Assembly (NCBI GenBank): GCA_021234155.1
Contig: JAJEKV010000031.1
Span: forward strand, 6,958,748-7,022,747
Direction of reading: 5' to 3'
DNA length: 64,000 nucleotides
DNA from: Isoetes taiwanensis
Lineage: Eukaryota > Streptophyta > Lycopodiopsida > Isoetales > Isoetaceae
In this document: positions 9,504-46,940 of the stretch, one piece after another
Position numbering within the stretch: position 1 is the stretch's first letter
How the letters are laid out: every line of letters starts with the position of its first letter
The notes under the pieces: generated by a model
The model's database searches: none
Told to the model about the DNA's origin: nothing
Seen by the model: only the letters and a program-made list of their open reading frames with translations
Program-made: the position numbers and the translations under genes

Positions 9504-9519
9504 TGTATAAATTTATACA
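9504..9519. repeat. Palindrome TGTATAAATTTATACA at gene end
   Basis: A perfect 16-bp palindrome that supplies the stop codon of the methyltransferase frame (TAA at 9513-9515, minus strand). Same core as the intronic palindromes upstream. Confidence 0.8.
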
Positions 9520-10879
9520 AGAGGTGGGAGAGGTGGCTCTTCCCAGTCCACAGGACTCTCATACCCCTTAGGATCTGGCTCTTGCGAGCTTACAACAGCA
9601 GAGACGCCTCCTTCTGATTCGATTCCTACCGGCACAGGCGGTTTCTCTGGCTCAGGCACCACAGGCTCCAAGTCGACAAACTCCACCTCCTCATCTTTTC
9701 TTCCTGTAAGTGGAGGCTGTATTTCTGTGTAAGTGCCTTTAACATCGCTGGCACCGTTCTTTGCTCCCAGTTCCTCAGGAAAGGATTCACAAGAGCTTAT
9801 CCTGGTCCTGATGAAACTTACTTTATCTGGGTCTATGTCGACGGAGACGACATTGCGACCCTGCTTAAGGGCGCAAACAGCTGTGGTGCCTGATCCAGAA
9901 AAGGCATCTAAGATTCAGTCTCCAGGGCGAGAAAACCACTGTATCAAATTATTAATAAGCCATTGTGGCTTCTGATAATGGGACACCACAGCGCCTTGTC
10001 GCTGTGGGTCTCTTAATTTCTGCAGAACAGCTGGGAACTGAAAAGCATTGCAAGGAGAAGTCTTCTCATTCTGCGTGTTGAAACGGACCATGGTTTTTTT
10101 GGCATCTGCGCTGTAAAAACCTATATGAAAATGCTCGAAACAACTCACTAAGCGCGGACCACCACCATGACCCTTGACATTTGTTTTAAGCCTGCCAAAC
10201 AGTACAACAATTAAATATTAGTAAAATAAAAACAAGGAAAATAAGTTAGCTCAGTAGTGTGGCGGTATAAATTTATACCAGGCAAGGCAATGTCTGTATA
10301 AATTTATACCACGGCTGCAAGCCGTATAAATTTATACAGACATTGCCTTGCCATTTAAATTTAAACCTTAGGGCGGTTGTGGTATAAATTCATACCGTGG
10401 AGTTACTAAAAAGAAAAGCGTTGAATGTAAAGCTTACCAAACGCAGTTTTCGAAGCCGGCGTTACAGACAGCTCCCATAGGTTTAAGCACCGACATCGTT
10501 TGTAGGTCGGAATGGAAAATGATGACCCTCCAGTTAGCAGATAAGGTGACTTCCTTCAGGCCATCCAAAAAAGAGTGGACTTGCACGTGCGTGAAAGCCT
10601 CCTCGTCAAAAGCGTTGTCCTTAATTTTGAAACCATAGGGAATATCTGCAATGCATAATGTAAAGTTCTCGCTTGTCCAAAAGTGTCCCCGACCTCATGC
10701 AAAACCACTAACAACTCTGTACATGCAAATCCCCGACCAAACGCGTTGTAAATCTTTCATAAGAAGTGTCAAAGCTGCTAGTGGCGACCTCCTTTCCTTG
10801 TTCCATTGCCTTAAGTCTCTGCCTCTCTTCCTTGGCCCTACGAACCAGGTTTAAAAATCCAGCGGGTAGCTCCTTTTTT
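9513..10879 (-). pseudogene. C-terminal N6/N4-type DNA methyltransferase exons
   Basis: The upstream part reads RRAKEERQRLKAMEQGKE, then after a register break CIADIPYGFKIKDNAFDEE. DIPYG occupies the place of the (D/S)PPY catalytic motif. A GTAAGC donor at 10437 and a TTGGCAG acceptor at 10192 bracket an intron with five palindrome copies. The last exon reads GGGPRLVSCFEHFHIGFYSA, then SHYQKPQWLINNLIQWFS, RPGD, stop, ILDAFSGSGTTAVCALKQG. The DAFSGSGTT segment is the SAM-binding FxGxG motif, downstream of the catalytic motif as in beta-class (PF01555-like) enzymes. Such enzymes methylate adenine N6 or cytosine N4. The TGA at 9915-9917 lies where Trp is usual. The final stop TAA lies inside a palindrome. 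Confidence 0.75.
10264..10396. repeat. Intronic palindrome cluster with 29-bp inverted repeat
   Basis: Copies of the GTATAAATTTATAC core lie at 10264-10279, 10296-10309, 10324-10337 and, with one change, 10381-10396. Positions 10281-10309 and 10324-10352 form perfect 29-bp inverted arms around a 14-bp loop. The whole cluster sits inside one intron of the methyltransferase gene. Confidence 0.85.
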
Positions 10880-10946
10880 CTTGTTACGTAAAGAATACTT
10901 GTGAGAAAAAGGCACAAACCGTGAATATATTTTTAGCAAAACTTAC

Positions 10947-11390
10947 CCGACCCCAAAGTTAACAGCGTGCTCTCTAATGATACTATCGGTGGTACAACTT
11001 GGGTCTGAAGCTTGCACTCCTCCCAGTCCTCTAGGTTTTAGCCGCTTCATTAACTTCGGCCCGGCGGTGACAATGTCTTTCCTGACCGCAAAGAGAAACA
11101 TGTTGTAAGACCCGTAAAATGTAGAAAAAACACGGCATTGCAAATGAGGCTTACGTCTTAGCTTCCTTGGCCATTTCGTCTAATGTGAATTCCTTGGCCA
11201 CGACTTTTTCCAAAAGGCGAACAAAAATTTCTTTGCTTTTTAGACCCTGTAACTGCGTTCAGGGTACAATGCTCATATTTTTCTGTTTTGGTTCTCCACC
11301 CTTTTTTGGTTTTTTCCCTGCGGAGCTGGCTTGTTCTTTAAGCTCACCATCTTCGAACATACAAAAAATTCTTTCTTGAAGATCCCACAC
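10947..11390 (-). pseudogene. Two linker exons of ParB-methyltransferase gene
   Basis: Exon 11390-11155 follows a CATTTACAG acceptor and reads VWDLQERIFCMFEDGELK, then a Lys/Pro-rich linker, a TGA at 11259-11261, then KEIFVRLLEKVVAKEFTLDE. It ends at a GTAAGC donor. Exon 11081-10947 follows GCGGTCAG and reads KDIVTAGPKLMKRLKPRG, ending at GTAAGT. The phases of both junctions agree, which supports real splicing rather than chance frames. The helix-rich second half may extend the ParB-like region. No catalytic motif is seen here. Confidence 0.55.
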
Positions 11391-11484
11391 CTGTAAATGG
11401 ACAAACGTCATTAGTTTAGTGTTGCTTGGCGTAAGAGAATATATTGCACAGTCTACTGTCTAAATGCGCACGGTGTGTAGTCAC

Positions 11485-11557
11485 GGTATAAATTTATACC
11501 GTGCCCAGGCGCTGTGTAAATTTCTACCGTGACCTGGGCACGGTATAAATTTATACC
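11485..11557. repeat. Intronic palindrome cluster
   Basis: Perfect GGTATAAATTTATACC copies at 11485-11500 and 11542-11557, with a degenerate copy (GTGTAAATTTCTACC) between them. Each is embedded in extended inverted context (CACGG...CCGTG and GCCTGGGCAC). All lie in the intron between the ParB exon and the next exon. Confidence 0.85.
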
Positions 11558-11621
11558 GTGCCCAGGCACTTGTAACCAAGCTAAACATACTACAAAACAC
11601 AGAAAGAAAGCATTTACTTAC

Positions 11622-12575
11622 TTGACCATCTCTGAATGCCAGTTGAAAGTAGTTATCGTATTGCTTTACTGCCATAATGGGCTTCTTATCAGAGTCATAA
11701 CTGAGGCAGCACTCTGTCACATAGGCTTCTCGAAGCTCCTACAGCTTGTTCTTTTGCTTTTTAAAATCCTCTCCATGCATTTGTTTAAATTCCACGTACT
11801 CACGGTGCATGAAACGGATCTTGTCTATTAAACTCATTTTTAATCTGAAGTCATTGTCGAGATTATGACTCACGGCAATGACTTTTGCTTCTTCATCTAT
11901 TACACCCACGTATATATGCGCTTCCACGCTCTTCCACACTTCGTTACGGCTTTCTTCCTTTGCTAGTTCTTTCCTTGCCTTGTAACTATGTGTGCCTCCA
12001 AGAACGTAGTATGTGTAATCTTCGAAGTCAGCCTTCTTGTAATCTTTTAGTTGGTTGCATTGACTCCTGTCCACCATAACAACTAGTGGCGACACATGGG
12101 CATGAGGATTCCTTCTCATTCTTTGTTTCAGTATAGCCACATGTGCCGCATACAGCTTCCAGACCTGTAGCACTCTGACCCCATCTTCATTTTTAGGTGG
12201 CCTCTTAATGGTGCTCAATGTCAAAGAAATAGTTTGCTTAAGCAGTTTAGTGTCATTCACTCGCTTGAGAATAGCACTTGATTTATCTGCGGGCTTCACA
12301 ACAATATCTGCTCCAGGAGCCTTCTGAAGAGCTTCTGTTGACTCCTCTATAGTCAAAGACTTTGTGATTCTAGATTTCTTTTTTGTGGGAGCCTGTATAT
12401 CTACTACCAGGGAATGCTTCCTACCCTTTCCCTTTGTTACCACTGGTTCCTCTTCCTCTTCTTCTTCTATTTCCTCGTCCTTCTCTTCCTCTTCGTTAGG
12501 AGTGGGGTACCACAGACCTTTGACCAACACCTTTTCTTCGCAAAGCACCACTGACATCAAAATGTCCACTGTATC
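11622..12575 (-). pseudogene. ParB-like domain exon
   Basis: A 954-nt exon (318 codons) between a TTACAG acceptor and a GTAAGT donor. It begins with an acidic linker of Glu runs and a basic patch (TKKKSRITK). The ParB/sulfiredoxin-like core follows: SPLVVMVDR, then YYVLGGTHSYKARKEL (the GxHR-like nucleotide-binding motif, here GGTHSY), then VEAHIYVGVIDEEAKVIA and SHNLDNDF. In phages and bacteria such domains occur fused upstream of N6/N4 DNA methyltransferases and help recognise or process DNA. A TAG at 11739-11741 interrupts the frame 40 codons before the donor; the frame resumes cleanly, so it looks like a point mutation. Confidence 0.65.
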
Positions 12576-12607
12576 CTGTAATGCAGGGTTAAGTTAGGAG
12601 GATGACG

Positions 12608-12621
12608 GTATAAATTTATAC
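12608..12621. repeat. Single intronic palindrome
   Basis: GTATAAATTTATAC inside the 70-bp intron 12645-12576 of the methyltransferase gene. The palindrome takes up a fifth of this very short intron. Confidence 0.8.
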
Positions 12622-12645
12622 GTAAAGACACTAAAAATTACTTAC

Positions 12646-13009
12646 ATAGCCGCTCTTGTAATTGTCAGACACGTAGTCATGCACGTCTTTGGGTTTGCAC
12701 ATGCTTATTCTAAGCATTTTACTATTAAGAACATAGAAGACTTCCCCTTTGTCATGCATGCACTTCATTAAAATTTCATCATCGTTCTCTGTAGCAACAA
12801 GGTTGACAATTTCGCCGGCAGGGTAATAATCATCAGACTTGTACTTGCCCTTCCCTGATTGATGACACAAGTAAAGGTACGCCTCAGTGGATTTCCTCTC
12901 TCTTGCGCCCCTGTGGACAAACCACGTCTGGTCTTTCAGTTCGTATGTCTGTGGCTCTACTGGTGCAGCCTTTGATGATTGGCCCTTGTGTACAAACCTG
13001 ATCTTGGGG
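12646..13009 (-). pseudogene. N-terminal exon of ParB-methyltransferase gene
   Basis: Open for its whole length in one frame after a TTTTTCCAG acceptor, ending at a GTAAGT donor. It contains WFVHRGARERKSTEAYLYL, DDYYPAGEIVNLVATENDDE and VFYVLNSKMLRISMCKP. The mix of beta-strand-like segments suggests a small folded domain, possibly a chromatin-reader or BAH-like fold, but no diagnostic motif is present and I do not assign it. The following intron (12645-12576) is only 70 bp and contains one copy of the GTATAAATTTATAC palindrome. Confidence 0.55.
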
Positions 13010-13238
13010 CTGGAAAAAGCGTAAGAAAGGCCATTTTTATGCAAGAAATAGAACCTTTTTCGACCTTTTGTAACACAAAAACAGTAAAAACAGAGGCTAA
13101 AAGGGCATAAAATCCACACTAAATTAACACTTTATTTGTGTTATTTAAGCTTAAAACGCAACAATATTACTAAAATATTAAGGTTCGGGACAATTCTTTA
13201 AGCACTAGACACCAAGATTCCGAAATGGTAATGGAACG

Positions 13239-13521
13239 GTATAAATTTATACGCCCCGAGCACGAGCGGTATAAATTTATACCGTTCCAGAACACAATCG
13301 GTATAAATTTATACGCCCCGAGCACGAGCGATATAAATTTATACCGTTCCAGAAGACATTCGGTATAAATTTATACCGCAGGTGTTCTGGAGCGGTATAA
13401 CAGAACACTGCGGTATAAATTTATACCGAATGTCTTCTGGAACGGTATAAATTTATACCGCTCGTGCTCGGGGCGTATAAATTTATACCGATCCCGATCC
13501 ATATCGGTATAAATTTATACC
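13239..13521. repeat. Palindrome array in first intron
   Basis: At least nine copies of the GGTATAAATTTATACC family (about 13239, 13268, 13301, 13330, 13362, 13412, 13444, 13475, 13506), one truncated (13393). Intervening spacers are shared and inverted (CCCCGAGCACGAGCG and its complement). It lies in the apparent first intron of the minus-strand gene, next to the divergent promoter. Confidence 0.9.
13297..13492. repeat. Large near-perfect inverted repeat (about 93-bp arms)
   Basis: Arms 13297-13389 and 13401-13492 are reverse complements with one mismatch and one single-base indel, separated by 11 bp. Each arm holds three palindromes, so the structure can fold as a long hairpin with nested cruciforms. 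Confidence 0.9.
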
Positions 13522-13619
13522 GTGGGCGCTTACACTCTAACAGATTAAAACAAAAGAGAAACTAGAACACGATGCGGATAGTGGACTTACGCGTGGCCAT
13601 GGCAAGATGGACTCGCGTA

Positions 13620-13760
13620 TGGAGACGTTCCTGAGAGCAAATAAGGGGGTATATAAGCCGCGACCGCCGCCTTCGACTCCGGCTGTATATATAGAAAATA
13701 GGGTGGCCGTGCGGGCTTAAGTACCTACGCTAAGTCCGCTTCGTGATAGCGCTTCTCCAT
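13620..13760. promoter_or_regulatory. Divergent promoter of methyltransferase and transposase-like genes
   Basis: TATATAA at about 13650 reads on the minus strand as TTATATAC, about 50 bp upstream of the candidate minus-strand ATG at 13600. TATATATAG at 13685-13693 faces the plus-strand gene. The two boxes are about 35 bp apart around a GC-rich centre. This arrangement fits two genes transcribed away from one short promoter. Start sites are inferred, not seen. Confidence 0.5.
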
Positions 13761-13796
13761 AAAGTTTTCAATACAAGTGTAATACGTGAGTTTTCG

Positions 13797-13961
13797 TGAT
13801 AAATTTATACCGTTTACGTTCTATGTTGCCCTCCTCCTATAAATTTATACCACCTCTCGTATAAATTTATCGCCTCGCCACCTTGTTTTTTCTTCCCCGT
13901 ATAAATTTATACCATCTCTGTGTAAATTCACACCATTTGTTACGTCATATAAATTTATACT
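13797..13961. repeat. Degenerate palindromes in 5' leader intron of plus-strand gene
   Basis: Five or six half or full copies of TATAAATTTATACC (about 13797, 13837, 13857, 13899, 13920 and 13947). They lie between a GTGAGT donor at about 13786 and a TTTCTTTAAG acceptor at about 13984, so probably inside an intron in the 5' leader of the transposase-like gene. Confidence 0.65.
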
Positions 13962-13986
13962 GATTAATGGCTAACTTTCTTTAAGT

Positions 13987-16855
13987 ATGGCTCGAGAGAA
14001 AAGAACCTGCCAGAGCCTCCAAGTCTCCGTTCGCGGGCTTCCCTCCCCGCAATGACTTTCACACCTCCTCAACAGACACCAAGAAGTAGCCACGAATATT
14101 CTACCTCCGACATTCAAACCCCCAGCTCAGTTGAGTTTACTCCAGCACGACCACCTCGGCTTCCACCACCAGTTCAATTTACTCCACCACACCCCTCCTC
14201 AACGCCGTTTGCCCCCACCAATCGTTTTACTCCACCACAAGGCTAGAGAGCTCGGACTACCTCCTCCAGGTTCATTTTAGTATCGTCCGCCCATAGTCCA
14301 CCGCCGAGGCTCCCCTCCCGGAGGCAAATCACGCCAACTCCATCCATTTCACTAAATGGTACTACAACAAGTGGGAGCGGTCGTGACAGTAACTCCCCGT
14401 GTTCTCACGACACTTCAGGAGCTGGTCAACTACGTCACCAACCTCAATTACTTTTTCCCAGAGAGAGGGACAACACCTCCCCCAGGACTTGCCCACACCA
14501 AACCTCTCAGCATCTACAAGTACACCTCTTGTTGATCTCTCAGACGAAGAAACACCTCATGTTGATCTCTCAGACGAGGATCTACCAAAGCCACAAGACT
14601 CCATGTTCAAATTCAAAGCCCCTGCAAGTAAGAATCTTAAGCGTAACTTACACAAGAAAGCATGTACAACCGTTAGAAGAAAGAAACTCATGGACGAGGC
14701 TCACTTGAGGGCAACACATACAAAGCACTGTTGTTCTCAACGTTGTCGATTGGACTAAAGGAATTGAGGTTGATTCGTGATAGTTACAGTTCAATGACTC
14801 TGCTAGACCAAAGGGGCTACTTAGCCTTCAATATTAGGCCAGATTATGGTGAGAAGTTTACTTACACACTGGTGGCCACACCGTCTCATCAAACGGCCTT
14901 CAAATTGATTCATGCTTTAGGCAAAGGACGACTTGACCCCTGAAGAAAAGGCTTGACAAGAATCCAGGCATTAATGACTACTGCCATTCAGGAGGTATAT
15001 CCAGAATTCATGCCCTTCAATGTTTTCCTGGATGGAAGGTTTCTTTAAGGAGTCTTGCAAGAAACTCCCTAACAGCCCCATGTACCACTTGAGTGACAAC
15101 TTCACGAAACGTGAAGTCTACGATAATTATAAGGAAATGTGTGTTGAGGCTGGAGAACGCCATGTCTGCTACTCTTACTTCAACGTGTTCGGAAAAAAGA
15201 GTTTTCGGCGTGTCCATTCCTAGAAAGCATAGGATGTCCGTTTGTGCTACATGCTCAAATTAAAAGCTCAGAGACAAAATGCAAGGACACTTCACATTAA
15301 AAGTAAGCTTCCAGGACGTGTTCTTGCCTAGTTCTACTTAAAAGTAGGTTCTTTCCTAAATATATTTTCATTTCAGATGCATTGAAGGAGAAACTGAACA
15401 AGCACAGAGAACAACAATCTTTGGAAAGGAGAAAATTGACAAAACATAGGAAGAAAGCACTGGAACAACCACTCAACTACATATCGGTTGTTATTGATGG
15501 AATGGACCAGAAGAAGACCACCCTACCACATTTTGTCAATGTGCCTAAGGATCTTTGTTGAAGAAGATTTCATACATCCGCATGTTGTTGGTGCTATGGT
15601 ATTTAATGGAAAACTATCTTGCAAGGCATTTTTGAATTATCCAAACATTCATGCTGATCCAAATCTCACTATCACAATATTGAATAAGCTTCTTTCCAAT
15701 CTAGAACATATACCCACCGGTTCAATATCTTCAGCTAGACAACACGACAAGGGAAAATAAGAATCAGGCGTTGTTTGCTTACTGTGCTATGCTAGTAGAG
15801 AAACAAATCTTCAAGAAGGTGAAGATTGGTTTCCTGCTTGTTGGTCATACACACGATCAAATTGATCAGATGTTCAGTAGGTTCTCTAAACGTCTTGCTC
15901 GAAAAAAAGCTCTCAGCCTACCAACAATGATTGAGGTTATCCAAGATTCCTACAATCCTCGTCCAGACATCTTCGGAGAGATCAACTGGGTCAGTGTGCT
16001 ATTGAGCCCTTGAGAAACATTACATTTCAGCATCAAATCAAAATTTCACTTGAAGATGGCAAGGCCATCTTACAAGGAAAGAAATATGTCACATCCTTGC
16101 AGTGGCAGCCAGCAGCAGGTATTCAATTCATTCGCACCATCCCCAATACTAGTTCCATGCTCTCTGCAGAGCAAATGCCTCTAAAAAGCTTGAAAGAAAT
16201 CACAAAGAGTAAAAAGGAGGGAAGAGCATTTGACTCAAACAAATCATTGAATTATATTGAGACAAGTATTCAGTCGTGCTCTAACCACTTTGGGGAGGCA
16301 GATGCTTTATGGTGGCCTCAGTTTTTTTCTCGGCAACGTGACATGTTGCAAGCTTCATTACAAGGTCGAAGAACAGTTATATTCAACTGGCCATCTAGGC
16401 AAACTCTCCCTGTGCAAGTTAAGAATCAAGAGGAACATGTAGAGATATTGGCTAGCTTAGATGAAGATGACAGAGTCATGTGCACTGGCCCCAGATGCAC
16501 GGCACAACAAGTTGCTCGAGTATCTGGTTCAGTCTCAGAGATTCAGAAAGGAATGCTCATAGCTGTCCCAGCTGATAATGGTGAATCTGGGAAGCCATTC
16601 TGGCTAGCTAAAGTACTGGAGGTAACAAGAGAGGATGGAATTCCCACTCAACTAAAAGTGCACTGGATGAGAACGAATACTGCTAATGCTTTCAGTGGGA
16701 GTTATACTTTGGAGATGGTAAAAACAGGAGTGGGAAAGAGAGCAAAGTCCAAAGCAAGCACTGATGTCATAGATCTAGCTGAAGTAAAGGTTCTTGCATA
16801 TGACTTTGTTCTCGACCGCTTTGCTAATAAGTTACGATGGTCACTCAAACTTTAA
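13987..16855 (+). pseudogene. Transposase-like gene (DGMDQ / LDN / GHTHxxID family)
   Basis: Starting at ATGGCTCGAGAG (13987), broken frames give a Pro-rich region with FTPP repeats (14052-14240), an acidic VDLSDEE pair (about 14530-14590), a Cys cluster KHCCSQRC (about 14727-14750), and RDSYSSMTLLDQRGYL. Next come NFTKREVYDNYKEMCVEAG (about 15095-15160), an intron at 15303-15376, YISVVIDGMDQKKTTLPHF (about 15478-15535), LDNTTRENKN (about 15735-15765) and IGFLLVGHTHDQIDQMFSR (about 15822-15880). The order matches a widespread eukaryotic protein family (DUF7869-like) whose acidic residues suggest an RNase H-fold transposase; that function is inference. At least four frameshifts or stops inactivate it. 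Confidence 0.65.
16010..16855 (+). pseudogene. C-terminal part of transposase-like protein
   Basis: The longest intact frame of the gene (281 residues). It follows the GHTHDQID segment after one stop. It contains NYIETSIQSCSNHFGEADAL, then a region with MLIAVPADNGESGKPFWLAKV and LKVHWM. This PFWLxKV...VHW pattern resembles small chromo/Tudor-like or BAH-like barrels at the ends of transposase-like proteins. It ends LRWSLKL followed by two TAA codons. An acidic, lysine-rich stretch (KKDDDEDS, EEEDRS) continues in frame after the stops to about 16970, perhaps the original tail. Confidence 0.55.
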
Positions 16856-17479
16856 TAAGGCTCGGCATGTGGATTAGACAAACAACCTAGAAAGGTGGCA
16901 AAAAAAGATGATGATGAAGACTCACTTGTAGACGGTGAGGAAGAAGATCGCTCGAAAGTACATCCGTTTTGAGAGTGAAGTGAGGATGAAGGCTCAAGTG
17001 ATCGAGGATTAAATGAGTCTGGAGGATGAGATGCATCATGATCTTGTTTGCAAAATGTAAGTTTGTCCGATGACTTCGAACATGTAAAGAAATGAAAGTG
17101 TGTGATGAGTGTTTGTCAAAATGTCCTATATTTTTGACAATTTTGTTCATAATTTTGTACAATTTTCACAACCTTGAATATATCACTTCTTTGTCATTCT
17201 ACTACCCTTGCTATTTTTTTATTGCCCCTTTTTTGCTACACTTTATAAAAGTAACTATTTTTTGTTCTAGTTTAGGAGGATGAAAATTTCTATTTAAAAT
17301 TTGTGCATGAAAGTTATGTTCAATCAACCCCTCAAAAATGGTACCTAAATTACTTAAATTGTCACACCTGTCACAAAAAAATCTAAAAAATGGACTTTTT
17401 TAAGGGAATTTTAGGGAATCTTTCAAAGATTCCTTTTGAAGTGCGTTTGCAGCAAATAAGTGCGTTTCATTTTAAACTT
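16856..17479. other. AT-rich tail region, no gene seen
   Basis: After the acidic tail of the transposase-like gene the sequence becomes AT-rich with homopolymer runs and no convincing frame. If the two-gene block is a transposon its right end should lie here, but no inverted match to 9151-9500 was recognised. Confidence 0.45.
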
Positions 17480-17535: not shown

Positions 17536-17820
17536 CACAACAAGAGAATGGACATTTAGCGACGTGGGCTTGCGACGTCTGTGCGACGTGACGTCGCAAA
17601 TAACGTGACCATGCGACGTCAATGCGACGTCCGCGTCGCGGGACACGCCGTCGCATCGCGACGTGTGGTGCGACGTCGACACCGCGTGGCGTGGCGATCC
17701 GGTCACGCCCGGTGCACCACGCCGCATCGCTGCGTCGTCCACTTTGTGCGACGTGGACGTCGCGTCGTGGCGACGTGATGTCGCTACGGACGGATCGCCG
17801 CTACGGGACGCCTGGCGGGC
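17536..17820. repeat. Left subterminal GCGACGTC repeats of CACTA element
   Basis: GC-rich stretch with roughly a dozen GCGACGT/ACGTCGC motifs in both orientations. In CACTA elements such subterminal repeats are binding sites for the transposase. The counterpart lies at 29850-30080. Confidence 0.8.
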
Positions 17821-17832
17821 GTCTAGTGTACT

Positions 17833-18329
17833 TTGTTCTTTTTGGAGAACAAGGATGGTCTTCTGGCCACGAAAGTTGGTCCCCAGGGTAATGTCGATAT
17901 TCTGAGTCCATTGGAAGAGCCAAATCATGGTTTTGGAGAGGGGAAATTGCTCGTCCATCGCCAGTGGCCTTCGTAAAGAGAACTTTTGTGGCGAAGATGT
18001 GAGCTCTGGAAGACTTCGGAGCTATTTCATCGTGCACCAACACCGCATATCCTAGTGAAATGTTTTTCTCATGTCCGCACCGCAAGACGTTGCACCGCTT
18101 GTCAAAATTCCACCTTTTTTTCGATGCGAAATTTTTTAGTTATGCGTTCTTTTGCATTCATGCTTCATAAATTCGTAATTAATGCATGGTATGGAATTAA
18201 ATTCTGATTTTTTGTCAGTTGGCTTCCTATGTCATCCCCAAAGATACAAATTTTTAGAATTTCGGATAAAGTTCTGATCAAATAGGTAGCATTGGAACGG
18301 TCTAGGCACTTGTTGTTGAGGCAGAGAGC
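17833..18329 (+). repeat. Diverged lead-in units of the 1.13-kb array
   Basis: 17833-18000 matches the 'GGTCTT-TGGCCA-GAAA-TTGGTCCCC' part of the repeat unit but with many changes. 18150-18320 matches the 'TTCATAAATTCGTAATTAATGCAT' part. Both are shortened and more diverged than internal units, as expected at the edge of a tandem array. Confidence 0.7.
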
Positions 18330-21300
18330 AAGACATTCATAAATTCGTAATTAATGCATAGTACGGAATTAAATTCTGATTTTTTTGTCAGCAGGCTTCC
18401 TAAGACATCGCCAACATACAGAGCGCGGTTTGAGAATTTCGGACAAGGTTTAGATCAAAGTGTTTGCATTAGAACAATCCGGCAAACTTTGTTGTTGGCG
18501 TAATGAAATGGGCACACTTGCCCAAGTCAAACAAGGCCAGGACCTTGCAAGGCCACCTCATTAGAGGGGAGAGTCCGGACCCCGGGAGGCGAGCCCCAAA
18601 AGTTTCCCCGAGGCGACCTTTCCCCGGCCCACGGGGCCGTGACGCTAAAGACCACACTCCGGATCTCGGTTCCCCTATCCGGCCGTTGAATCCTTCGTTC
18701 AAGAGCCCCTGTCTCGATAAGGTCCAAAAATCCAACATCCGTCCGTGAGAACTTATCAAACCGCTGGCGTCCCGCGGTCGGCAGGTGTAGAAACCAAAGT
18801 GTTTTGTCGTTCGGACATTGCGAAGGCTCGGAATGGCGATTCGACTTAGCCACATCGTCCCCGAGGCCAAAATTACCCTAGAGACCAAGTTGCACCGGTC
18901 GGTTTGCAAAAGAAAGAAACACTTACGCCCTACGCTTGCGATTCGACAGCCCACCTCCTAGGCCAATTGACTACGAGTGTGTTGGACATGAGATAGTTTG
19001 ACGCTACCTCGAAAGGGGTGGTCTTTTGGCCATGAAACTTGGTCCCCGGGGCAATGTCGACGTTCTCGAGTCCATTGGTAGAGCGAATCACGATTCCGGA
19101 GAGGGGAAGTTGCGTCCGTTGCCGGGGCCAGCCGGGAGAGGACTTTTGGGGCAAGCTGCTTCGGATGGTTTTTAGGGTCGGTGCTCAAGCGTCAACACCC
19201 CCCTCTACGTCAAGACACGCGCCAAGGTCCTAGTCGAATCGACAAGGATAGAGCCTCAAACGTAAACCCTATGAGTTGCCGTGGGTTCTAGCGGGGTTTT
19301 GCGTTTTGGGTGCCGAAGTTTTGGTCCTTTGCACTTGGGACTTGGCCGATAAGATGCAGATTGAGAACGCGAAGCAAGGGGAACTGCGGAATGGAGTTTG
19401 GATCTCACTCCTCCCCGTTGTGGCGATTAAGTAAAGGGGCAGCTTTTGCGAAAGAGCAAGACATTCATAAATTCGTAATTAATGCATAGTACGGAATTAA
19501 ATTCTGATTTTTTGTCAGGCAGGCTTCCTGAGTCATCGCCCAGATACGTGGCCAGTTTTCAAAATTTTCGGACAAGGTTTAGATCAAAGTGTTTGCATTA
19601 GAACGGTCCGGGCAGCTGTTGTTGGGCAGCCAACCGCACACTTGCCCAAGTCAAATAAGGCCAGGACCTTGCAAGGCCACCTCATTAGAGGGGAGAGTCC
19701 GGACCCCGTGAGGCGAGCCCCAAAAGTTTCCCCGAGGCAGCCTTTCCTCGGCGGCTCCCCCCGGGGGCCGACGCGCTAAAGACCACACTCCCGGGATCTC
19801 CGGTTCCCCTATCCGACCGTTGAATCCTTCGTTCAAGGGCCCCGTCTCGATAAGGTCCAAAAAAATCAACATCCGTCCGCGGAGAACTTATCAAACCGCT
19901 GGCGTCCCGCGGGTCGGTGTAGAAACCAAAGTGTTTTGTCGTTCGGACATTGCGAAGGCTCCGGAATGGCGATTCGACTTCGCCACATCGTCCGGGAGGC
20001 CAAAATTACCCTAGAGACCAAGTTGCACGGTCAGTTTTGCAAAAGAAAGAAACACTTACCCTCTACGTTGCGCGATTTAAACACCACCTCCTAGGCCAAT
20101 TGACTCACGAAAGTGTGTTGTACATGAGATAGTTTGATGCTACCTCGAGAAGGGGTGGTCTTTTGGCCATGAAACTTGGTCCCCAGGGCAATGTCGACGT
20201 TCTGAGTCCATTGGTAGAGCCGAATCACGATTCCGGAGAGGGGAAGTTGCCCGTCCGTTGCCAGGCCCTTCGGGAGAGGACTTTTGGGGCAAGCTGCTTC
20301 CTGGATGGTTTTAGGGTCGGTGCTCAAGCGCCAACACCCCCTCTACGCCAAGACACCGGCGCAAGGTCCTAGTTGAATCGACAAGGATAGAGCCTCCAAA
20401 CATAAACCCTATGAGTTGCCGGTTCTAGCAGTGGTTTATGTTTTGGGTGCCGAAGTTTTGGTCTTTTGCACTTGGGACTTGGCTGATAAGATGCAGGTTG
20501 AGAACGCTGGCAAGAGGAACCGACGGAATGGAGTTTGGATATGTACTCCTCCGTTGTGGTAGTTAGAAGTAAAGGGCAGCTTTTGCAAATAGCAAGACAT
20601 TCATAAATTCGTAATTAATGCATAGTACGAATTAAATTCTGATTTTTGTCAGCAGGGCTTCCTAAGTCATCGCCAACATACAGGCCAGTTTTCAAAATTT
20701 TTGGACAAGGTTTAGATCAAAGTGTTTGCATTAGAACGGTCCGGGCAACTGTTGTTGGCAGTAGAAAGCTGCACACTTGCCCAAGTCAAATAAGGCCAGG
20801 ACCTTGCAAGGCCACCTCATTAGAGGGGAGAGTCCGGACCCCGTGAGGCGAGCCCCAAAAAGTTTCCCCGAGGCAGCCCTTTCTGGCGGCGCTCCCAGGG
20901 GCCGTGACGCTAAAGACCACACTCCCCCGGATCGGTTCCCCTATCCGACCGTTGAATCCTTCGCTCAAGGGCCCCGCCTCGATAAGGTCCAAAAATCCAA
21001 CATCCGTCCCGTGAGAACTTATCAAACCGCTGAAGCCCCCGGTGGGTCGGTCGTGTAGAAACCAAAGTGTTTTGTCGTTCGGACATTGGCGAAGGTTCGG
21101 AATGGCGATTCGACTTCGCCACATCGTCCGAGGCCAAAATTACCCTAGAGACCAAGTTGCACCTCCGGTTTTGCAAAAGAAAGAAACACTTACGCCCTAC
21201 GTTGCGATTCGGCAGACCACCTCCTAGGCCAATTGACTACGAGTGTGTTGGACATGAGATAGTTTGACGCTACCTCGAGAAGGGTGGTCTTTTGGCCATG

Positions 21301-24300
21301 AAACTTGGTCCCCGTGGGCAATGTCGACGTTCGAGTCCATTGGTAGAGCCGAATCACGATTCCTGAGAGGGAAGTTGCCCGTCCCAAGGCCGGACCCCGG
21401 GAGAGGACTTTTGGGGCAAGCCGCTTCCGGATGGTTTTTAGGGTCGGTGCTCAAGGCCAACACCCCCTCTACGTCAAGACACGGCGCAAAGTCCTAGTCG
21501 AATCGACAAGGATAGAGCCTCAAACGCGTAAACCCTATGAGTTGTCGTTCTCTAGGGTTTGCGCTTTGGGTGCCGAAGTTTTGGTCCTTTGCACTTGGGA
21601 CTTGGCCGATAAGATGCAGTTGAGAACGCTGAAGCAAGGGGAACTGACGGAATGGAGTTTGGATCAGTACTCCTCCCGTTGTGGCGCTTAGAAGTAAAGG
21701 GCGGCTTTTTGCGAAGCAAGACATTCATAAATTCGTAATTAATGCATAGTACGGAATTAAATTCTGATTTTTTGTCAGCAGGGCTTCCCGAGTCATCGCC
21801 AAAGATACGTGCCAGTTTTCAAAATTTTCGACAAGGTTTAGATCAAAGTGTTTGCATTAGAACGGTCCGGCAGCCTGTTGTTGGGCAGCGGAAGCCGCAC
21901 ACTTGCCCAAGTCAAATAAGGCCAGACCTTGCAAGGCCACCTCATTAGAGGGGAGAGTCCGGACCCCGTGAGGCGAGCCCCAAAAAAGTTTCCCCGAGGC
22001 AGCCTTTCCCGGGTGCTCCCCGGGGCCGTGACGCTAAAGACCACACTCCCGATCTCGGTTCCCCTATCCGACCGTTGAATCCTTCGTTCAAGGGCCCCGC
22101 TCTCCGATAAGGTCCAAAAATCCAACATCCGTCCCGTGAGAACTTATCAAACCGCCCAAGCGCCCCGCGTCGACCGTGGTAGAAACCAAAGTGTTTTGTC
22201 GTTCTGGACATTCGAAGGCTCGAATGGCGATTCGACTTAGCCACATCGTCCGGGAGGCCAAAATTACCCTAGAGACCAAGTTGCACGGTCAGTTTTTTGC
22301 AAAAGAAAGAAACACTTCGCCCTACGTTGCATTAAGATTCGGCCCACCTCCTAGGCCAATTGACTACGAGTGTGTTGTACATGAGATAGTTTGATGCTAC
22401 CTCGAAAGGGGTGGTCTTTTGGCCATGAAACTTGGTCCCCAGGGCAATGTCGACGTTCTGAGTCCATTGGTAGAGCCGAATCACGATTCCGGAGAGGGGA
22501 AGTTGCCCGTCCGTTGCCAGGCCCTTCGGGAGAGGACTTTTGGGGCAAGCTGCTTCCGGATGGTTTTTAGGGTCGGTGCTCTGGCGTCAACACCCCCCTA
22601 CGCCAAGACACCCGCCAAGGTCCTAGTTGAATCGACAAGGATAGAGCCTCCCAAACATAAACCCTATGAGTTGCCGCCGTGTTCTAGCGGGGTTTGCGCT
22701 TTGGGTGCCGAAGTTTTGGTCTTTGCACTTGGGACTTGGCTGATAAGATGCAGTTGAGAACGCGAAGCAAGAGGAACTGACGGAATGGAGTTTGGATATG
22801 TACTCCTCCCGTTGTGGTAGTTAGAAGTAAAGGGCAGCTTTTGCAGTAGCAAGACATTCATAAATTCGTAATTAATGCATAGTACGGAATTAAATTCTGA
22901 TTTTTTGTCAGCAGGCTTCCTAAGTCATCGCCAACATACAGCCAGTTTTTCAAAATTTTTGGACAAGGTTTAGATCAAAGTGTTTGCATTAGAACGGTCC
23001 CGCAGCCTTGTTGTTGGGCAAATGAGCCGGCACACTTGCCCAAGTCAAATAAGGCCGGACCTTGCAAGGCCACCTCATTAGAGGGGAGAGTCCTGGACCC
23101 CGTGAGGCGAGCCCCAAAAAAGTTTCCCGAGGCGGCCTTTCCTGCGGCTCCCGGGGGCGTGACGCTAAAGACCACACTCCCGGATCTCGGTTCCCCTATC
23201 CGGCCGTTGAATCCTTCGCTCAAGGGCCCCGTCCTCGATAAGGTCCAAAAAATCCAACATCCGTCCGGTGAGAACTTATCAAACCGCGAAGCGTCCCGCG
23301 GTCGAATCGTAGAAACCAAAGTGTTTTGTCGTTCGGACATTGCGAAGGCTCCGGAATGGCGATTCGACTTCGCCACATCGTCCGGGAGGCCAAAATTACC
23401 CTAGAGACCAAGTTGCACGGTCAGTTTTGCAAAAGAAAGAAACACTTACGCCCACGCGCTAAAAGATTCGACAGCCCACCTCCTAGGCCAATTGACTACG
23501 AGTGTGTTGGACATGAGATAGTTTGACGCTACCTCGAAGGGGTGGTCTTTGGCCATGAAACTTGGTCCCCTGTGGCAATGTCGACGCTCGAGTCCATTGG
23601 TAGAGCCGAATCACGATTCCTGAGAGGGGAAGTTGCCCGTCCCATTGCTGGGATTCTTCGAGAGGGACTTTTTAGGGCAAGCCGCTTCCGATGGTTTTAG
23701 GGTTTGGTGCTCAAGGCCAACACCCCCCTCTACGCCAAGACACGGCGCAAAGGTCCTAGTCGAATCGACAAGGATAGAGCCTCCTGAAACGTAAACCCTA
23801 TGAGTTGCCGTGTTCTAGCGGTGGTTTGGCGCTTTGGGTGCCGAAGTTTTGGTCCTTTGCACTTGGGACTTGGCCGATAAGATGCAGCGATTGAGAACGC
23901 TACAAGGGGAACCGGACGAATGGAGTTTGATCTGTACTCCTCCCGTTGTGGCGCTTAGAAGTAAAGGGCAGCTTTTTGCAGAGAGCAAGACATTCATAAA
24001 TTCGTAATTAATGCATAGTAATGGAATTAAATTCTGATTTTTGTCAGCAGGCTTCCTGAGTCATCCAAAGATACTGAGGCCAGTTTTCAAAATTTTCGGA
24101 CAAGGTTTAGATCAAAGTGTTTGCATTAGAACGGTCCGGGCAGCCTGTTGTTGGGCAGCCGAGCCGCACACTTGCCCAAGTCAAATAAGGCCAGGACCTT
24201 GCAAGGCCACCTCATTAGAGGGGAGAGTCCCCCCCGTGAGGCGAGCCCCAAAAGTTTCCCCGAGGCAGCCTTTCCTCGGCAGCTCCACGGGGCAGACGCT

Positions 24301-27300
24301 AAAGACCACACTCCCGGGATCTCTGCCCCCTATCCGACCGTTGAATCCTTCGCTCAAGGGCCCCGCCTCGATAAGGTCCAAAAAATCCAACATCCGTCCG
24401 CGAGAACTTATCAAACCGCTGGTTGCCCCCGCGGTCGATCGCGGTAGAAACCAAAGTGTTTTGTCGCTCGGACATTGCGGTAAGGCTCCGAATGGCGATT
24501 CGACTTAAGCCACATCGTCCCCGAGGCCAAAATTACCCTAGAGACCAAGTTGCACGGTCAGTTTTGCAAAAGAAAGAAACACTTACGCCCCTACGCTGCG
24601 GATTCGACGTACCACCTCCTAGGCCAATTGACTACGAGTGTGTTGTACATGAGATAGTTTGATGCTACCTCGAGAAGGGGTGGTCTTTTGGCCATGAAAC
24701 TTGGTCCCCAGGGCAATGTCGACGTTCTGAGTCCATTGGTAGAGCCGAATCACGATTCCGGAGAGGGGAAGTTGCCCGTCCCGTGCCCGCAGACCGGGGA
24801 GAGGACTTTTGGGGCAAGCTGCTTCCGGATGGTTTTTAGGGTCGGTGCTCTGGCGTCAACACCCCCCCTCTACGTCAAGACACGGCGCAAGGTCCTAGTT
24901 GAATCTGACAAGGATAGAGCCTCCGAAACATAAACCCTATGAGTTGCCAGGTTCTAGCAGGGTTTGCGTTTTGGGTGCCGAGTTTTGGTCTTTTGCACTT
25001 GGGACTTGGCTGATAAGATGCAGTTGAGAACGCGAAGCAAGAGGAACTGACGGAATGGAGTTTGGATATGTACTCCTCCCGTTGTGGTAGTTAGAAGTAA
25101 AGGGCAGCTTTTGCAGTAGCAAGACATTCATAAATTCGTAATTAATGCATAGTACGGAATTAAATTCTGATTTTTTGTCAGCAGGCTTCCTAAGTCATCG
25201 CCAACATACAGGCCAGTTTTCAAAATTTTTGGACAAGGTTTAGATCAAAGTGTTTGCATTAGAACGGTCCGGGCAGCCTGTTGTTGGGCAGCCGAGCTGG
25301 CACACTTGCCCAAGTCAAATAAGGCCAGGACCTTGCAAGGCCACCTCATTAGAGGGGAGAGTCCGGACCCCAGGAGGCGAGCCCCAAAAAAAGTCCCCGA
25401 GGCAGCCTTTCCCCGGCAGCTCCCACGGGCCGTGACGCTAAAGACCACACTCCCGATCTCGGTTCCCCTATCCCACCGCTGAATCCTTCGTTCAAGGGCC
25501 CCGCCTCTCGATAAGGTCCAAAAATCCAACATCCGTCCGTGAGAACTTATCAAACCGCTGGCGCCCCCTGTCAAGGTCGTGTGTAGAAACCAAAGTGTTT
25601 TGTCGTTCGGACATTGCGAGGGCTCCTCGAATGGCGATTCGACGCCACATCGTCCGGGAGGCTGAAATTACCCTAGAGACCAAGTTGCACGGTCAGTTTT
25701 GCAAAAGAAAGAAACACTTACGCCCTACGTTGCAGTATTCGACAGCCACCTCCTAGGCCAATTGACTACGAGTGTGTTGGACATGAGATAGTTTGACGCT
25801 ACCTCGAGAAGGGGTGGTCTTTTGGCCATGAAACTTGGTCCCCAGGGCAATGTCAACGTTCCGAGTCCATTGGCAGAGCCGAATCACGATTCCGGAGAGG
25901 GGAAGTTGCCCGTCCGTCGCCAGCCTTCCTTCGAGAGGACTTTTTAGGGCAAGCCGCTTCCCAGTGGTTTTTAGGGTCCGTGCTCGCCGTCAACACCCCC
26001 TACGCCAAGACACGGGCGCCCAAGGTCCTAGTCGAATCGACAAGGATAGAGCCTCCCAAACGTAAACCCTATGAGTTGCCGTGTTCTAGCGGGGTTTGGC
26101 GCTTTTGGGTGCCGAAGTTTGGTCCTTTGCACTTGGGACTTGGCCGATAAGATGCGCTTGAGAACGCTGGCAAGGGAACCGACGGAATGGAGTTTGATCT
26201 CAGACTCCTCCCGCTGTGGCGCTTAGAAGTAAAGGGCGGCTTTTGCAAAAGTAGCAAGACATTCATAAATTCGTAATTAATGCATAGTACGGAATTAAAT
26301 TCTGATTTTTTGTCACAGGCTTCGAAGTCATCGCCAAAGATACACGCCAGTTTTCAAAATTTTCGGACAAGGTTTAGATCAAAGTGTTTGCATTAGAACG
26401 GTCCGGGCAGCCTGTTGTTGGGCAGCCGAGCTGGCACACTTGCCCAAGTCAAATAAGGCCAGGACCTTGCAAGGCCACCTCATTAGAGGGGAGAGTCCGG
26501 ACCCGTGAGGCGAGCCCCAAAAAAGTTTCCGAGGCGGCCTTTCCTGGCGGCTCCCTCGGGGCCGACGCTAAAGACCACACTCCCGGATCTCGGTTCCCCT
26601 ATCCGACCGTTGAATCCTTCGTTCAAGGGCCCTGCCTCGATTAGGTCCAAAAAAATCCAACATCCGTCCGTGAGAACTTATCAAACCGCTGGCCGCCCTA
26701 GGGGTCGCCGTGTAGAAACCAAAGTATTTTGTCGCTTCGGACATTGCGAGGGAGGGAATGGCGATTCGACTTCGCCACATCGTCCGGGAGGCGAAATTAC
26801 CCTAGATACCAAGTTGCACGGTCGGTTTTGCAAAAGAAAGAAACACTTACGCCCTACGCTGCGGTGATATTCGGCGACCACCTCCTAGGCCAATTGACTA
26901 CGAGTGTGTTGGACATGAGATAGTTTGACGCTACCTCGAGAAGGGGTGGTCTTTTGGCCATGAAACTTGGTCCCTAGGGCAATGTCGACGTTCCGAGTCC
27001 ATTGGCGTAGCCAATCACGATTCGGAGAGGGGAAGTTGCCCGCTCGCCCGAGGCCTTCGGGAGAGGACTTTTGGGGCAAGCCGCTTCGGATGGTTTTTAG
27101 GGTCCGTACTCAAGCGCCAACACCCCCCTCTACGCCAAGACACGGCGCAAGGTCCTAGTCGAATCTGACAAGGATAGAGCCTCCGAAACGTAAACCCTAT
27201 GAGTTGCCAGGTTCTAGCAGGGTTTGCGTTTTGGGTGTCGAGTTTTGGTCCTTTGCACTTGGGACTTGGCCGATAAGATGCAGATTGAGAACGCTGAAGC

Positions 27301-27817
27301 AAGGGAACCGACGGAATGGAGTTTGGATCACACTCCTCCCGTTGTGGCGGTTAAAGTAAAGGGCGACTTTTGCGGTAGCAAGACATTCATAAATTCGTAA
27401 TTAATGCATAGTACGGAATTAAATTCTGATTTTTGTCGTGAGGCTTCCTAAGTCATCGCCAACATACAGGCGATTTTCAAAATTTTTCGGACAAGGTTTA
27501 GATCAAAGTGTTTGCATTAGAACGGTCCGGCAGCTGTTGTTGTTGCAGCCGAAATGGGCACACTTGCCCAAGTCAAACAAGGCGGGGACCTTGCAAGGCC
27601 ACCTCATTAGAGGGGAGAGTCCTGACCCCGTGAGGCGAGCCCCAAAAAGTTTCCCCGAGGCAGCCTTTCCTCGGCAGCTCCCGGGGGGTCGTGACGCTAA
27701 AGACCACACTCCCGGATCTCGGTTCCCCTATCCGGCCGCTGAATCCCTTCGCTCAAGGGGCCTTGTTCGATAAGGGCCAAAAAATCCAACATCCGTCCGG
27801 AGAACTTATCAAACCGC
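18330..27817 (+). repeat. Tandem array of about 8.4 units, 1.12-1.14 kb each
   Basis: Units beginning AAGACATTCATAAATTCG start at 18330, 19458, 20594, 21718, 22851, 23987, 25121, 26256 and 27380; the last is cut short at about 27817. Period 1124-1136 bp. No conserved frame runs through the units: open frames differ from copy to copy because of 1-4-nt indels, so they are not genes. AT-rich segments are nearly invariant, while GC-rich spots differ between units. Confidence 0.95.
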
Positions 27818-28010
27818 CACCCTGTGCTCAAACATGCCACCCCGTGCTCAAACGTTCGTAAGTAGTAGCAATAGAAGATTGGTTAAATCCGCAATGTGAT
27901 TTTGATCGCATATATGGCTCGGGAATGTCCAAATTAGCATAAGGACAAACTTTCATGACCATCGATGAAAAAAAAAAAAAAGGCACCAAAAATTAAAAAA
28001 GTGTTAGACG

Positions 28011-28190
28011 TCACTATAACAAAATATCGTCGCGGACATCGCCGCATGCGACGTTAAACAGATATCACGATTTTGAAATCAGATATACGATTTTGAAATC
28101 GATATATACGATTTCAAAATCGTATATACGATTTCAAAATTACGTCAAGATCTTGACGTCGCGCGCGTCGCATGCGACGCCGTGTTTTTT
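28011..28190. repeat. Possible second CACTA-type terminus, nested
   Basis: CACTATAACAAAATATCG followed by GCGAC-type motifs resembles a plant CACTA end. It is followed by a palindromic stretch of CGATTTTGAAATCG units (about 28065-28140) and ACGTCAAGATCTTGACGT. No matching partner end was found, so it may be a truncated nested element. Confidence 0.4.
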
Positions 28191-28369
28191 TCAATCCCAG
28201 GCCGCCTCTTTTCCGGACCATTCCTAGGCTTCCTTCTATCGACTATTTTGGGCGATCTTGGCATGACCTTGAATGACTTGCAAGCACTCTTTTTAAGGTT
28301 AGTAGATCATGCTTTTTTGGATTGAATGGTTTTTTGGATTGAATGATTTAGTGTAGATTTCAAATTTTT

Positions 28370-28800
28370 TTTCTATCTCTTTCCTTCTTTTTCTTCTTCT
28401 TGTTTTCTCGCATTCTTCTTCTTTTTTCCTTCTTTCCTCATTTCTTTCTTGATTCTTCCCTTATTTCACTCTTCCATTCTTCCATTCTTCTATCTTCTTC
28501 CATTTCATTCTCTTATTTCTTCCATTCTTCTCTTTCTTCCCCTAATTTCTTTTTCTCCTCTTTTCCCCTTCTCTTCTTTCTCCCACCCTTCTCTTCTTCT
28601 TTGATTCATTCATTTTTTTTTTCTTTCTTGTTTTACTATTTCTTCATCTTTTTTTTTTTTTTTTTTTGTTTCTTCTTGATCTTTTTTTTTCGTTGTTCTT
28701 ATTCTTCTAACTCTTTGTTGCTTTCTATTTCGATTTGGACCCTCGGGATCTTGTTACACACGCCCTTCTTTTGGTAAGTTGATCGCTTGCATTTTATTTT
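28370..28800. repeat. Pyrimidine-rich low-complexity tract
   Basis: About 400 bp almost entirely T and C on the plus strand with TTCTTC-type simple repeats. The open frame through it encodes only Phe, Ser, Leu and Ile runs and is not a gene. Confidence 0.85.
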
Positions 28801-28830
28801 TATAATTTTAAGCGGGTTAAAAAAATTGAT

Positions 28831-29135
28831 GGAGTGGCTTGTTCAAGGGCACGGGTTCGGCTCCACCTAGAGTGGGGAGGACCATGTACCCGGTTCAAGT
28901 CCACTTCACTCACGATCATATATTTTCCCTAGGTTAAGGAGTGGCTTGTTCAAGGGCACTCCGGCTCCACCTAGAGTGGAGAGGGCCACGCATCCGTTCA
29001 AGTCCACGTGCACTTGTTATTTTTAGGTTTAAAATAAAATTGTAGTGGCTTGTTCAAGGGCACGTAGGGCTCCACTACACGAGTGGAGACGACCAGTGTT
29101 CGGGTCCAAGTCGACTTTTTCTTGTAATTCTTAGG
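28831..29135 (+). repeat. Three tandem repeats of about 105 bp with tRNA B-box-like motif
   Basis: GTGGCTTGTTCAAGGGCAC starts units at about 28833, 28941 and 29044. Each unit also has a CTCCAC...GAGTGGAG inverted pair and a late GTTCAAGTCC or GGTCCAAGTC resembling an RNA polymerase III B box. Divergence between units is considerable. Located in the right part of the CACTA element. Confidence 0.7.
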
Positions 29136-30095
29136 TAGAGGTGGCCAAATCTAGCTTATAACCCTAAAGCCGTATGTTAGCCAACTCTAGCTTTTAATCC
29201 GACTAATCCAGATTTGGAAGGGGCTCATTTCGATGATGGGGGGAGCTGCTTCGAAAAAGAAGGTACATGACCTAGTCATAGTCTTATTTTTATTCTTTTG
29301 TTTTGTGTTAATCTATCGATTTATAGAAAAGGCAAAGAGTGATTGCAAAATTGAAGTCGAATGCCAAAAAATTGGGAGGCGATTGGTCAAAGGTCCCTAA
29401 ACCACTTAATCTGTCCATAAGGAAGATATCAAGGTATTTGTTATTTGTTGCCATTCGTTCAATTCGAAATAAGACATTTAACTTGTCATGTTGTATTCCT
29501 TGCAATCAGATCACTTTCGAACGTGCAAAGGATTCCAAGAAAAAACATCTGCCTCACGGACTGCCAAGGCAACTTCAAGCAAACGAATTCCGTCTCACTT
29601 GGGTTCTGGCGGCCGAAATAGATTCGTAAGTGCTATAAACTCTTAGTTCACGTTAACTTTCAATGTCATTGTCTAATATTGGTCGTATTGTTATAGAATT
29701 GGCTATACGGGTTTTCCCCTAACAGGGAACACGTAAAGATAGCCACTACTCGCCTCTTGTATATGATATTGTAACTAACTATTAAAATTCTTTCCTTTTT
29801 TTTTTTTAATTTTTTTTAATTTTTTTTTTTTTTTTTTTTTTTTTTTCGTCCACCACGTCGCACGCGACGTCACGTCGCACGCGACGTCTGAGCGACGTCC
29901 CCTCGAGTCACGCCTGAAGTCACGCCTCTGGCGGCGCTCGAAGCGAGCGACGCCGCCGACGCCGCATGCGACGACGCCGCATGCGACGATATTCCGAACG
30001 ACGTCGTGGAGACGCCCGCGGCGACGTCGGGACGTCGCATAGACGTCGTTCAGACGTCGCTATAGACGTCGCTAAATGACCCTTTTCTTGTTGTG

Positions 30096-42757: not shown

Positions 42758-42951
42758 TATTGAAACTAAGCGAAAAGCATACAAAAGACAAGAACAAAGG
42801 AAGTAATCCCAAAGACTCAAATCATGTATTGAATATGAACACATATATAAGTACATGGAAAAAGGCATGCCTAAATATGGAAAAGGCATGTCTATACTTG
42901 CAAGGGCTAAATATAGAAAAAGGCATGAGAGCCCAACGTGGCATCTCAACA
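42758..42951 (-). repeat. 3' LTR of copia element 1
   Basis: 194 bp, identical to 47663-47856 base by base as read. Flanked on the outside by GAAAC (42753-42757). Confidence 0.95.
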
Positions 42952-42960
42952 CCCCCCCTG
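42952..42960 (-). promoter_or_regulatory. Polypurine tract of copia element 1
   Basis: CAGGGGGGG on the minus strand directly before the 3' LTR start TGTTGAG. Confidence 0.85.
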
Positions 42961-46938: not shown

Positions 46939-46940
46939 TG

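Follow-up and report, generated by a model that had tools for sequence, protein, structure and literature searches.

Within a 64-kb stretch of DNA from Isoetes taiwanensis (contig JAJEKV010000031.1; the whole stretch is referred to as the window), two broken genes in divergent orientation were found between an apparent Gypsy long terminal repeat end (~9150, judged from the sequence) and a CACTA-like element beginning at 17536. One gene, on the minus strand, encodes a ParB-like domain followed by a beta-class amino-methyltransferase domain, and the other, on the plus strand, a transposase-like protein of the DUF7869 family. Moreover, 23 near-copies of a short palindrome, the only ones in the window, are confined to this locus. 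A preliminary description had reported two decayed divergent genes at 9504..16855 together with a pair of TATA boxes in opposite directions. Its coordinates were right, stop codons and frame breaks were found in both genes, and the TATA pair lies between their 5' ends, where it presumably represents a bidirectional promoter. Likewise, its family assignment was largely right. The most informative feature of the locus is the palindrome arrays, which were absent from that description; its start position, 9504, is itself a palindrome copy. All features are compiled in the table.

Features of the locus (coordinates refer to the window)
Feature	Position	Strand	Basis or remark
ParB-like/amino-methyltransferase gene	9513..13009	-	GT-AG borders; homology to P0001 and P0002; stops and frame break
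DUF7869 gene, broken	14000..16858 (5' limit approximate)	+	PF25273; relatives P0003, P0004, P0056
TATA boxes, opposite directions	TATATAA 13650(+); TATATATA 13693(-)		Between the 5' ends of both genes
Palindrome over methyltransferase stop codon	9504..9519		
Palindrome array, intron 10437-10192	10264..10396		4 sites and one with 4 mismatches
Palindrome array, intron 11621-11391	11485..11557		3 sites
Single palindrome, 70-bp intron 12645-12576	12607..12622		
Palindrome array upstream of exon 13009, presumed 5' intron	13238..13521		9 sites
Palindrome array, DUF7869 5' region	13796..13961		5 sites and one with 4 mismatches
ParB/sulfiredoxin-like domain (GGTHSYKA ... HNLDND)	11763..12095 (boundaries approximate)	-	PHROG; hhalign to phage ParB-like proteins
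Beta-class amino-methyltransferase domain	9762..10670 (approximate)	-	DIPYG (motif IV) in exon 5; DAFSGSGTT (motif I, 9908-9882) in exon 6
Predicted RNase H-like core	15478..15971	+	Model of P0004, fold comparison, mapping, conservation
Candidate acidic residues	DGMDQ 15496; LDN 15738; GHTHDQID 15864	+	
Region matching the BAH-like domain of P0004 (residues 681-797)	16514..16846	+	Fold comparison of P0004, mapping

The ParB-methyltransferase gene comprises six exons on the minus strand (13009-12646, 12575-11622, 11390-11155, 11081-10947, 10879-10438 and 10191-9513) with a summed length of 2810 nucleotides, separated by GT-AG introns and ending with the stop codon TAA at 9515-9513. The motifs GGTHSY, DIPYG and DAFSGSGTT are carried by these exons. 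A short additional first exon upstream of 13009 is likely; an ATG at 13600 with a GT donor behind it is out of frame with exon 2. Decay of the gene is evident from the in-frame stops TAG 11741-11739, TGA 11261-11259 and TGA 9917-9915 and from a break of the reading frame at about 10.7 kb, within exon 5. Both TGA stops occupy positions that are tryptophan in relatives, which fits C-to-T decay on the other strand. A non-standard genetic code reading TGA as tryptophan was rejected, since TGG codons are present, a TAG and a frame break occur in addition, and C-to-T decay is the simpler explanation. An endogenous virus was not favored either: introns interrupt the gene, and viral genes were not noticed.

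The beta-class methyltransferase named in the preliminary description is well founded. Exon 6 of the window gene matches PF01555 (N6_N4_Mtase) with 29.3 bits at a gathering cut-off of 26.7, the relative P0002 reaches 65.7 bits, and the domain, which is split by the intron 10437-10192, also matches DNA methyltransferases in PHROG. P0002 furthermore matches the structures of RsrI, MboIIA and CcrM in PDB. Motif IV precedes motif I, as required of beta-class amino-methyltransferases, and the FxGxG motif for S-adenosylmethionine binding reads DAFSGSGTT in the window and DLFSGSGTT in P0002, but DLFAGTDTT in P0001.

Relatives of the gene were identified by protein searches, which scored candidate lists of limited length only. 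Searching with the read-through protein, two were found among 7993 scored candidates, namely P0001 (E 2.8e-84) from the fern Adiantum nelumboides and P0002 (E 1.4e-62) labeled Gb_37443, where the label Gb_ is taken by us to denote Ginkgo biloba. A profile search returned 18 proteins, comprising six Gb_ models (P0002 included) and 12 distant methyltransferases, mostly without names (one is named Clostridia). P0001 was missing from this result despite being part of the query alignment; the profile search therefore misses true relatives. The best aligned pieces of the six Gb_ models are 54-96% identical, over varied lengths. An N-terminal fragment of P0002, P0076, P0077, P0078 and P0080 weakly resembles the C-terminus of the window methyltransferase (in P0080, 44% over 27 residues, E 0.005), as if these models were preceded by a second copy.

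Among viral contigs, one methyltransferase relative was obtained, the 372-amino-acid open reading frame (ORF) of which has no long extra domain, and in prokaryote genomes the peptide pattern was matched by 383 stretches, none of them a relative. Methyltransferase matches were also present in 40 plasmid and 93 phage records. In two plasmids examined, the methyltransferase adjoins a ribonuclease HII gene, whereas two phages examined contain short methyltransferase genes; the annotations of these four records note no ParB fusion. Two Gb_ queries were covered to 80% by one place in none of the phage and plasmid records.

Assignment of the ParB-like domain to the ParB/sulfiredoxin superfamily has good but not final support from sequence comparison. 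In PHROG, the window domain matches three families, all three being ParB-like partition proteins (E 0.013-0.03); of the five plant members, only the window member matches them, and two families of unknown function match one member each. Pfam DUF6551, which we presume to belong with ParB, was matched by three of the five members (best E 0.0014), the full proteins scoring 14.2-14.9 bits and thus below the cut-off of 26.8. Sulfiredoxin appeared in four of five PDB rows (E 0.35-0.45, all closely similar chains), and NCBIfam yielded a single weak and unrelated row. In total, 56 phage records matched the window domain, with E-values of 0.6-8 among those listed, and 20 of the 25 listed matches are annotated as ParB-like, many of them in near-identical phages. 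With the corresponding Gb_ domain, a single phage record, unannotated, was matched; among plasmids, one hypothetical protein was obtained.

In profile-profile alignment (hhalign, profile A6), four phage ParB-like proteins took ranks 1-4 of 99 ORFs. Their scores of 28.3-34.3 were in each case reached by none of 100 shuffles and lie above the best score of 73 DUF7869 controls (23.1). The corresponding probabilities are modest (18.7-69.9%), and the result is not fully independent, as the window sequence had been the query of the tblastn list that supplied the four proteins. Among the phage proteins, L008 is a ParB_N protein according to Pfam (E 8.5e-7), L007 and L009 owe the ParB-like label to their annotation alone, and L006 contains a methyltransferase domain after its ParB-like stretch, that is, in the same order as the window gene. 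The phage ParB-like genes L008 (1848-4046) and L009 (1-2327) are located directly upstream of genes for queuine tRNA-ribosyltransferase, QueC and QueD; these queuosine-type neighbors hint at a role of the small phage ParB-like proteins in DNA modification. A ParB/sulfiredoxin superfamily is named in PMC12839542, and PMC12783734 describes fusions of ParBc domains to DNA methyltransferases as frequent and of unknown function.

Several observations count against the ParB-like assignment. PF02195 (ParB_N) was matched at its curated cut-off by none of the five plant members, the individual ParB matches are weak, and in Pfam the window domain itself retrieved only IgA0_D2 (0.0089) and Mlh1_C (0.022), both unrelated. 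The AlphaFold model of the ParB-methyltransferase, with a mean predicted local distance difference test (pLDDT) score of 33.6, is of no help in this assignment. The ParB-like domain proposed initially stands as a resemblance to established superfamily members and not as a match to the ParB_N profile.

The divergent partner, previously recognized by its DGMDQ/LDN/GHTHxxID motifs, belongs to DUF7869, as its piece 15705-16013 matches PF25273 with an E-value of 6.8e-37. Among the three Pfam profiles suggested earlier for this locus, N6_N4_Mtase and DUF7869 were accordingly matched, but ParB (PF02195) was not. At least one stop codon and roughly four frame changes interrupt the DUF7869 gene, in which an intron was located by eye at ~15302-15380. 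Its relatives include P0003 (53%), P0004 from Ceratopteris and P0056 from Adiantum nelumboides. In the gene model of P0056 (L7F22_061815), an rve integrase domain is joined to DUF7869, which may be a prediction fusion. A weak match to the N-terminal part of the family at 14764-14937 (27.7% over 65 residues of P0013, the E-value of 2.75e-4 being reached only in combination with a second piece) indicates that the 5' end of the gene faces the methyltransferase gene. Based on its predicted structure, P0004 probably combines an RNase H-like core of the transposase type with a BAH-like domain. In an alignment of 34 rows, aspartate is present in 32 at position 323, in 33 at position 326, in 33 at position 404 and in all 34 at position 446. 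P0004 itself has asparagine at position 323; the window copy retains aspartate at 323, 404 and 446. The conserved aspartates may form a catalytic triad.

The palindrome GGTATAAATTTATACC occurs, with up to three mismatches, 23 times in the 64 kb, and all copies lie within 9504-13961, compared to a mean of 0.26 and a maximum of two in 100 shuffles. The 10-mer ATAAATTTAT was found 21 times in the window, each time within the palindrome stretch. Seventeen copies are located in four introns (nine in the presumed 5' intron, followed by one, three and four), one at the stop codon and five in the DUF7869 5' region, so that the presumed shared promoter has palindromes on both sides. No copy was found inside exons or in the 73-bp and 67-bp introns. 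Random placement of 22 sites in the stretch would spare the exons with a probability of ~3e-10, a figure that overstates the case since sites of one array are not independent. The symmetrized consensus reaches CGGTATAAATTTATACCG, with the outer C/G present in 32 of 46 half-sites, and 13 of 19 spacings within arrays measure 28-32 bp (sites with four mismatches counted too). In IMG/VR, palindrome pairs had no match.

In 198 pairs of sites from six separate places, the 16-mer is 87.6% identical, a value raised by the selection of sites for 16-mer similarity, which leaves the 10-mer count and the confinement unaffected; the ten flanking bases on each side are 32.8% identical versus 30.9% in random pairs. 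Flanks near chance next to a retained 16-mer imply that the palindrome was not simply copied along with its surroundings. These comparisons bear on the explanation that the palindromes, having no protein dedicated to reading them, stem from ordinary expansion of a repeat or are AT-rich, promoter-like elements. Some spacers do recur within a single array (a 62-bp unit in 2.3 copies with 96% matches), and arrays also match their own reverse complement, as exemplified by 13238..13521 with its arms 13267-13381 and 13408-13522 (115 bp, 92% complementary). However, spacers are unrelated between arrays while the palindrome is kept, and exons are avoided by the sites, which makes this explanation very unlikely. 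On sequence grounds, the palindrome looks like a selected recognition site, and its confinement to the locus suggests a mobile element that recognized its own DNA. A transcript of the inverted repeat 13267-13522 could fold back and feed small-RNA silencing. Furthermore, the observed/expected CpG ratio at 13352-13951, covering promoter and arrays, is 1.59 and thus not depleted; the arrays are either young or shielded from decay of 5-methylcytosine.

Based on gene content and palindrome distribution, a dead selfish two-gene unit, the ParB-methyltransferase of which bound or marked its own sites, is tentatively proposed, at a probability that we place somewhat below even. Such a unit would comprise about 8 kb with two divergent genes, encoding a transposase-like protein with an RNase H-like core and a BAH-like chromatin reader, as well as the ParB-like/amino-methyltransferase. 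The palindrome would be recognized by the methyltransferase or a complex containing it, and clusters of the site would have been kept in introns, around the promoter used by both genes and at the methyltransferase gene's 3' end. From these sites, the bound methyltransferase may have marked the unit's DNA and/or repressed the unit's promoter. The palindromic form would fit a dimer, and the clustering would fit cooperative binding or spreading on DNA, for which ParB proteins are known. The methyltransferase as reader is the simplest account because the site is private, symmetric and repeatedly kept in non-coding parts of that gene; we infer that the protein read the palindrome and methylated DNA. 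Two points weigh against these roles. Motif IV is non-canonical and variable, with DIPY in the window, EAPY in P0001 and DIPH in P0002, the canonical catalytic motif of amino-methyltransferases being (D/N/S)PP(Y/F/W), and no direct link connects the palindrome with either the ParB-methyltransferase or the DUF7869 protein.

Alternatively, the locus may be one element in which the palindromes were bound by the DUF7869 protein. Some plant transposases bind sub-terminal repeats, and clustered short motifs with the predominant spacing described above would suit a transposase. Since the sites occupy the middle and the side of the methyltransferase gene instead of both ends, and none occurs 3' of the DUF7869 gene, this alternative is considered improbable.

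Whether the two genes belonged to one mobile unit, as the proposed selfish unit would entail, was weighed against a chance neighborhood of a self-amplified plant ParB-methyltransferase family, which would have palindromic control sites of its own, and an unrelated fragment of a DUF7869 transposon. Around the pair, terminal inverted repeats (TIRs) and target-site duplications (TSDs) were found at chance level only (blastn-short and a search for short TIRs plus TSD, on both sides and beyond the CACTA-like insertion); the element ends may have been lost. The palindromes end at 13961 and do not enter the DUF7869 body, and CpG depletion is somewhat unequal, with observed/expected ratios of 0.61 in the methyltransferase exons, 0.48 in the DUF7869 gene and 0.34 in its 3' half. 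Among the named plants, both families were detected only in Adiantum nelumboides, on different contigs (2,221,469 and 2,655,382 bases), and DUF7869 was found in Ceratopteris and Riccia without a methyltransferase match. None of the 73 DUF7869 hits carries a Gb_ label despite the six Gb_ methyltransferase models, which weakens the pairing. All of these observations speak against a single unit. The absence of partner genes is weak evidence because of the restriction to candidate lists, and true relatives are overlooked by the protein search, as the case of P0001 illustrates. Against a chance neighborhood stand the 5' ends, which point toward one another over a single short stretch bearing TATA boxes both ways, the palindromes crossing this stretch into the DUF7869 5' region, and the broken state of both genes. 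A chance neighborhood is regarded as a real but doubtful possibility.

The preliminary description had also suggested a mobile element that marks its own DNA. Private palindromes, a transposase-like partner and the divergent pairing are in line with this idea; element ends, however, were not found. In its most far-reaching form, the locus would represent a eukaryotic DNA transposon with partition-like self-recognition, in which a ParB-methyltransferase and 23 private palindromes in introns and the shared promoter served to identify, mark and control the element's own DNA independently of host 5-methylcytosine. This form is rather unlikely in our assessment.

The remaining window is repeat-rich plant DNA with Gypsy-like and Copia-like reading frames, recognized by eye. 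The element at 17536-30095, which we take to be of the CACTA (En/Spm) type from its termini, has 30-bp TIRs (90%) starting with CACAACAAG, a 3-bp target duplication GAG and sub-terminal GCGACGT repeats. It contains a tandem array at 18325-27818 with a unit of ~1.13 kb in ~8 copies of 88-90% identity. Two Copia-like elements (by eye) at 42758-47856 and 53343-57496 are flanked by direct repeats of 194 and 231 bp, each 100% identical, and are therefore probably recent insertions.

As far as is known, land plants mark their DNA mainly by 5-methylcytosine. A plant ParB-methyltransferase family with candidate target sites in its own introns thus offers a test case for N6-methyladenine or N4-methylcytosine (4mC) in ferns and possibly gymnosperms, and the locus one for possible self-marking by a mobile element. 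Given how exact and abundant the candidate site is, marking is testable with native long reads from a plant with an intact copy. Among the literature matches listed, with bioRxiv outside the scope, no plant ParB-methyltransferase gene with private palindromes was found, nor any entry about such a plant gene, and the literature searched mentions neither DUF7869 nor any of the Gb_ gene names.

Compared to known systems, the closest domain order is that of prokaryotic and phage fusions of ParB with DNA methyltransferases, for example L006 from Mycolicibacterium phage phi1_186018 (428 amino acids), in which, as in the plant gene, a ParB-like stretch and N6_N4_Mtase follow each other in one protein. 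The plant gene differs by its introns and a long N-terminal region, and the similarity is low, amounting to 29% over 73 columns in the methyltransferase and to 49 columns, at a probability of 18.7%, in the ParB-like part. The DUF7869 (PF25273) proteins of ferns, liverworts and some animals share sequence, motifs and the C-terminal part with the window copy, which in contrast is broken and divergent to a methyltransferase gene. Mobile elements bearing a DNA methyltransferase (PMC5890265) are already known, and so is a eukaryotic amino-methyltransferase of bacterial origin (PMC8885841). The latter, N4CMT of bdelloid rotifers, is likewise of bacterial type; it carries a fused chromodomain and places 4mC on transposons, whereas the enzyme described here appears to be part of a selfish unit, with the BAH-like domain on the neighboring protein. 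PMC5890265 mentions DNA transposons with a DNA methyltransferase (DNMT) in marine viruses and, as mobile elements that likewise encode methyltransferases, DNMT retrotransposons of Symbiodinium and Klebsormidium and Dam-like methylases of DIRS elements. The retrotransposons described there carry C5 or Dam-like enzymes, in contrast to the beta-class enzyme of the Isoetes locus with its ParB-like domain, DUF7869 neighbor and private palindromes.

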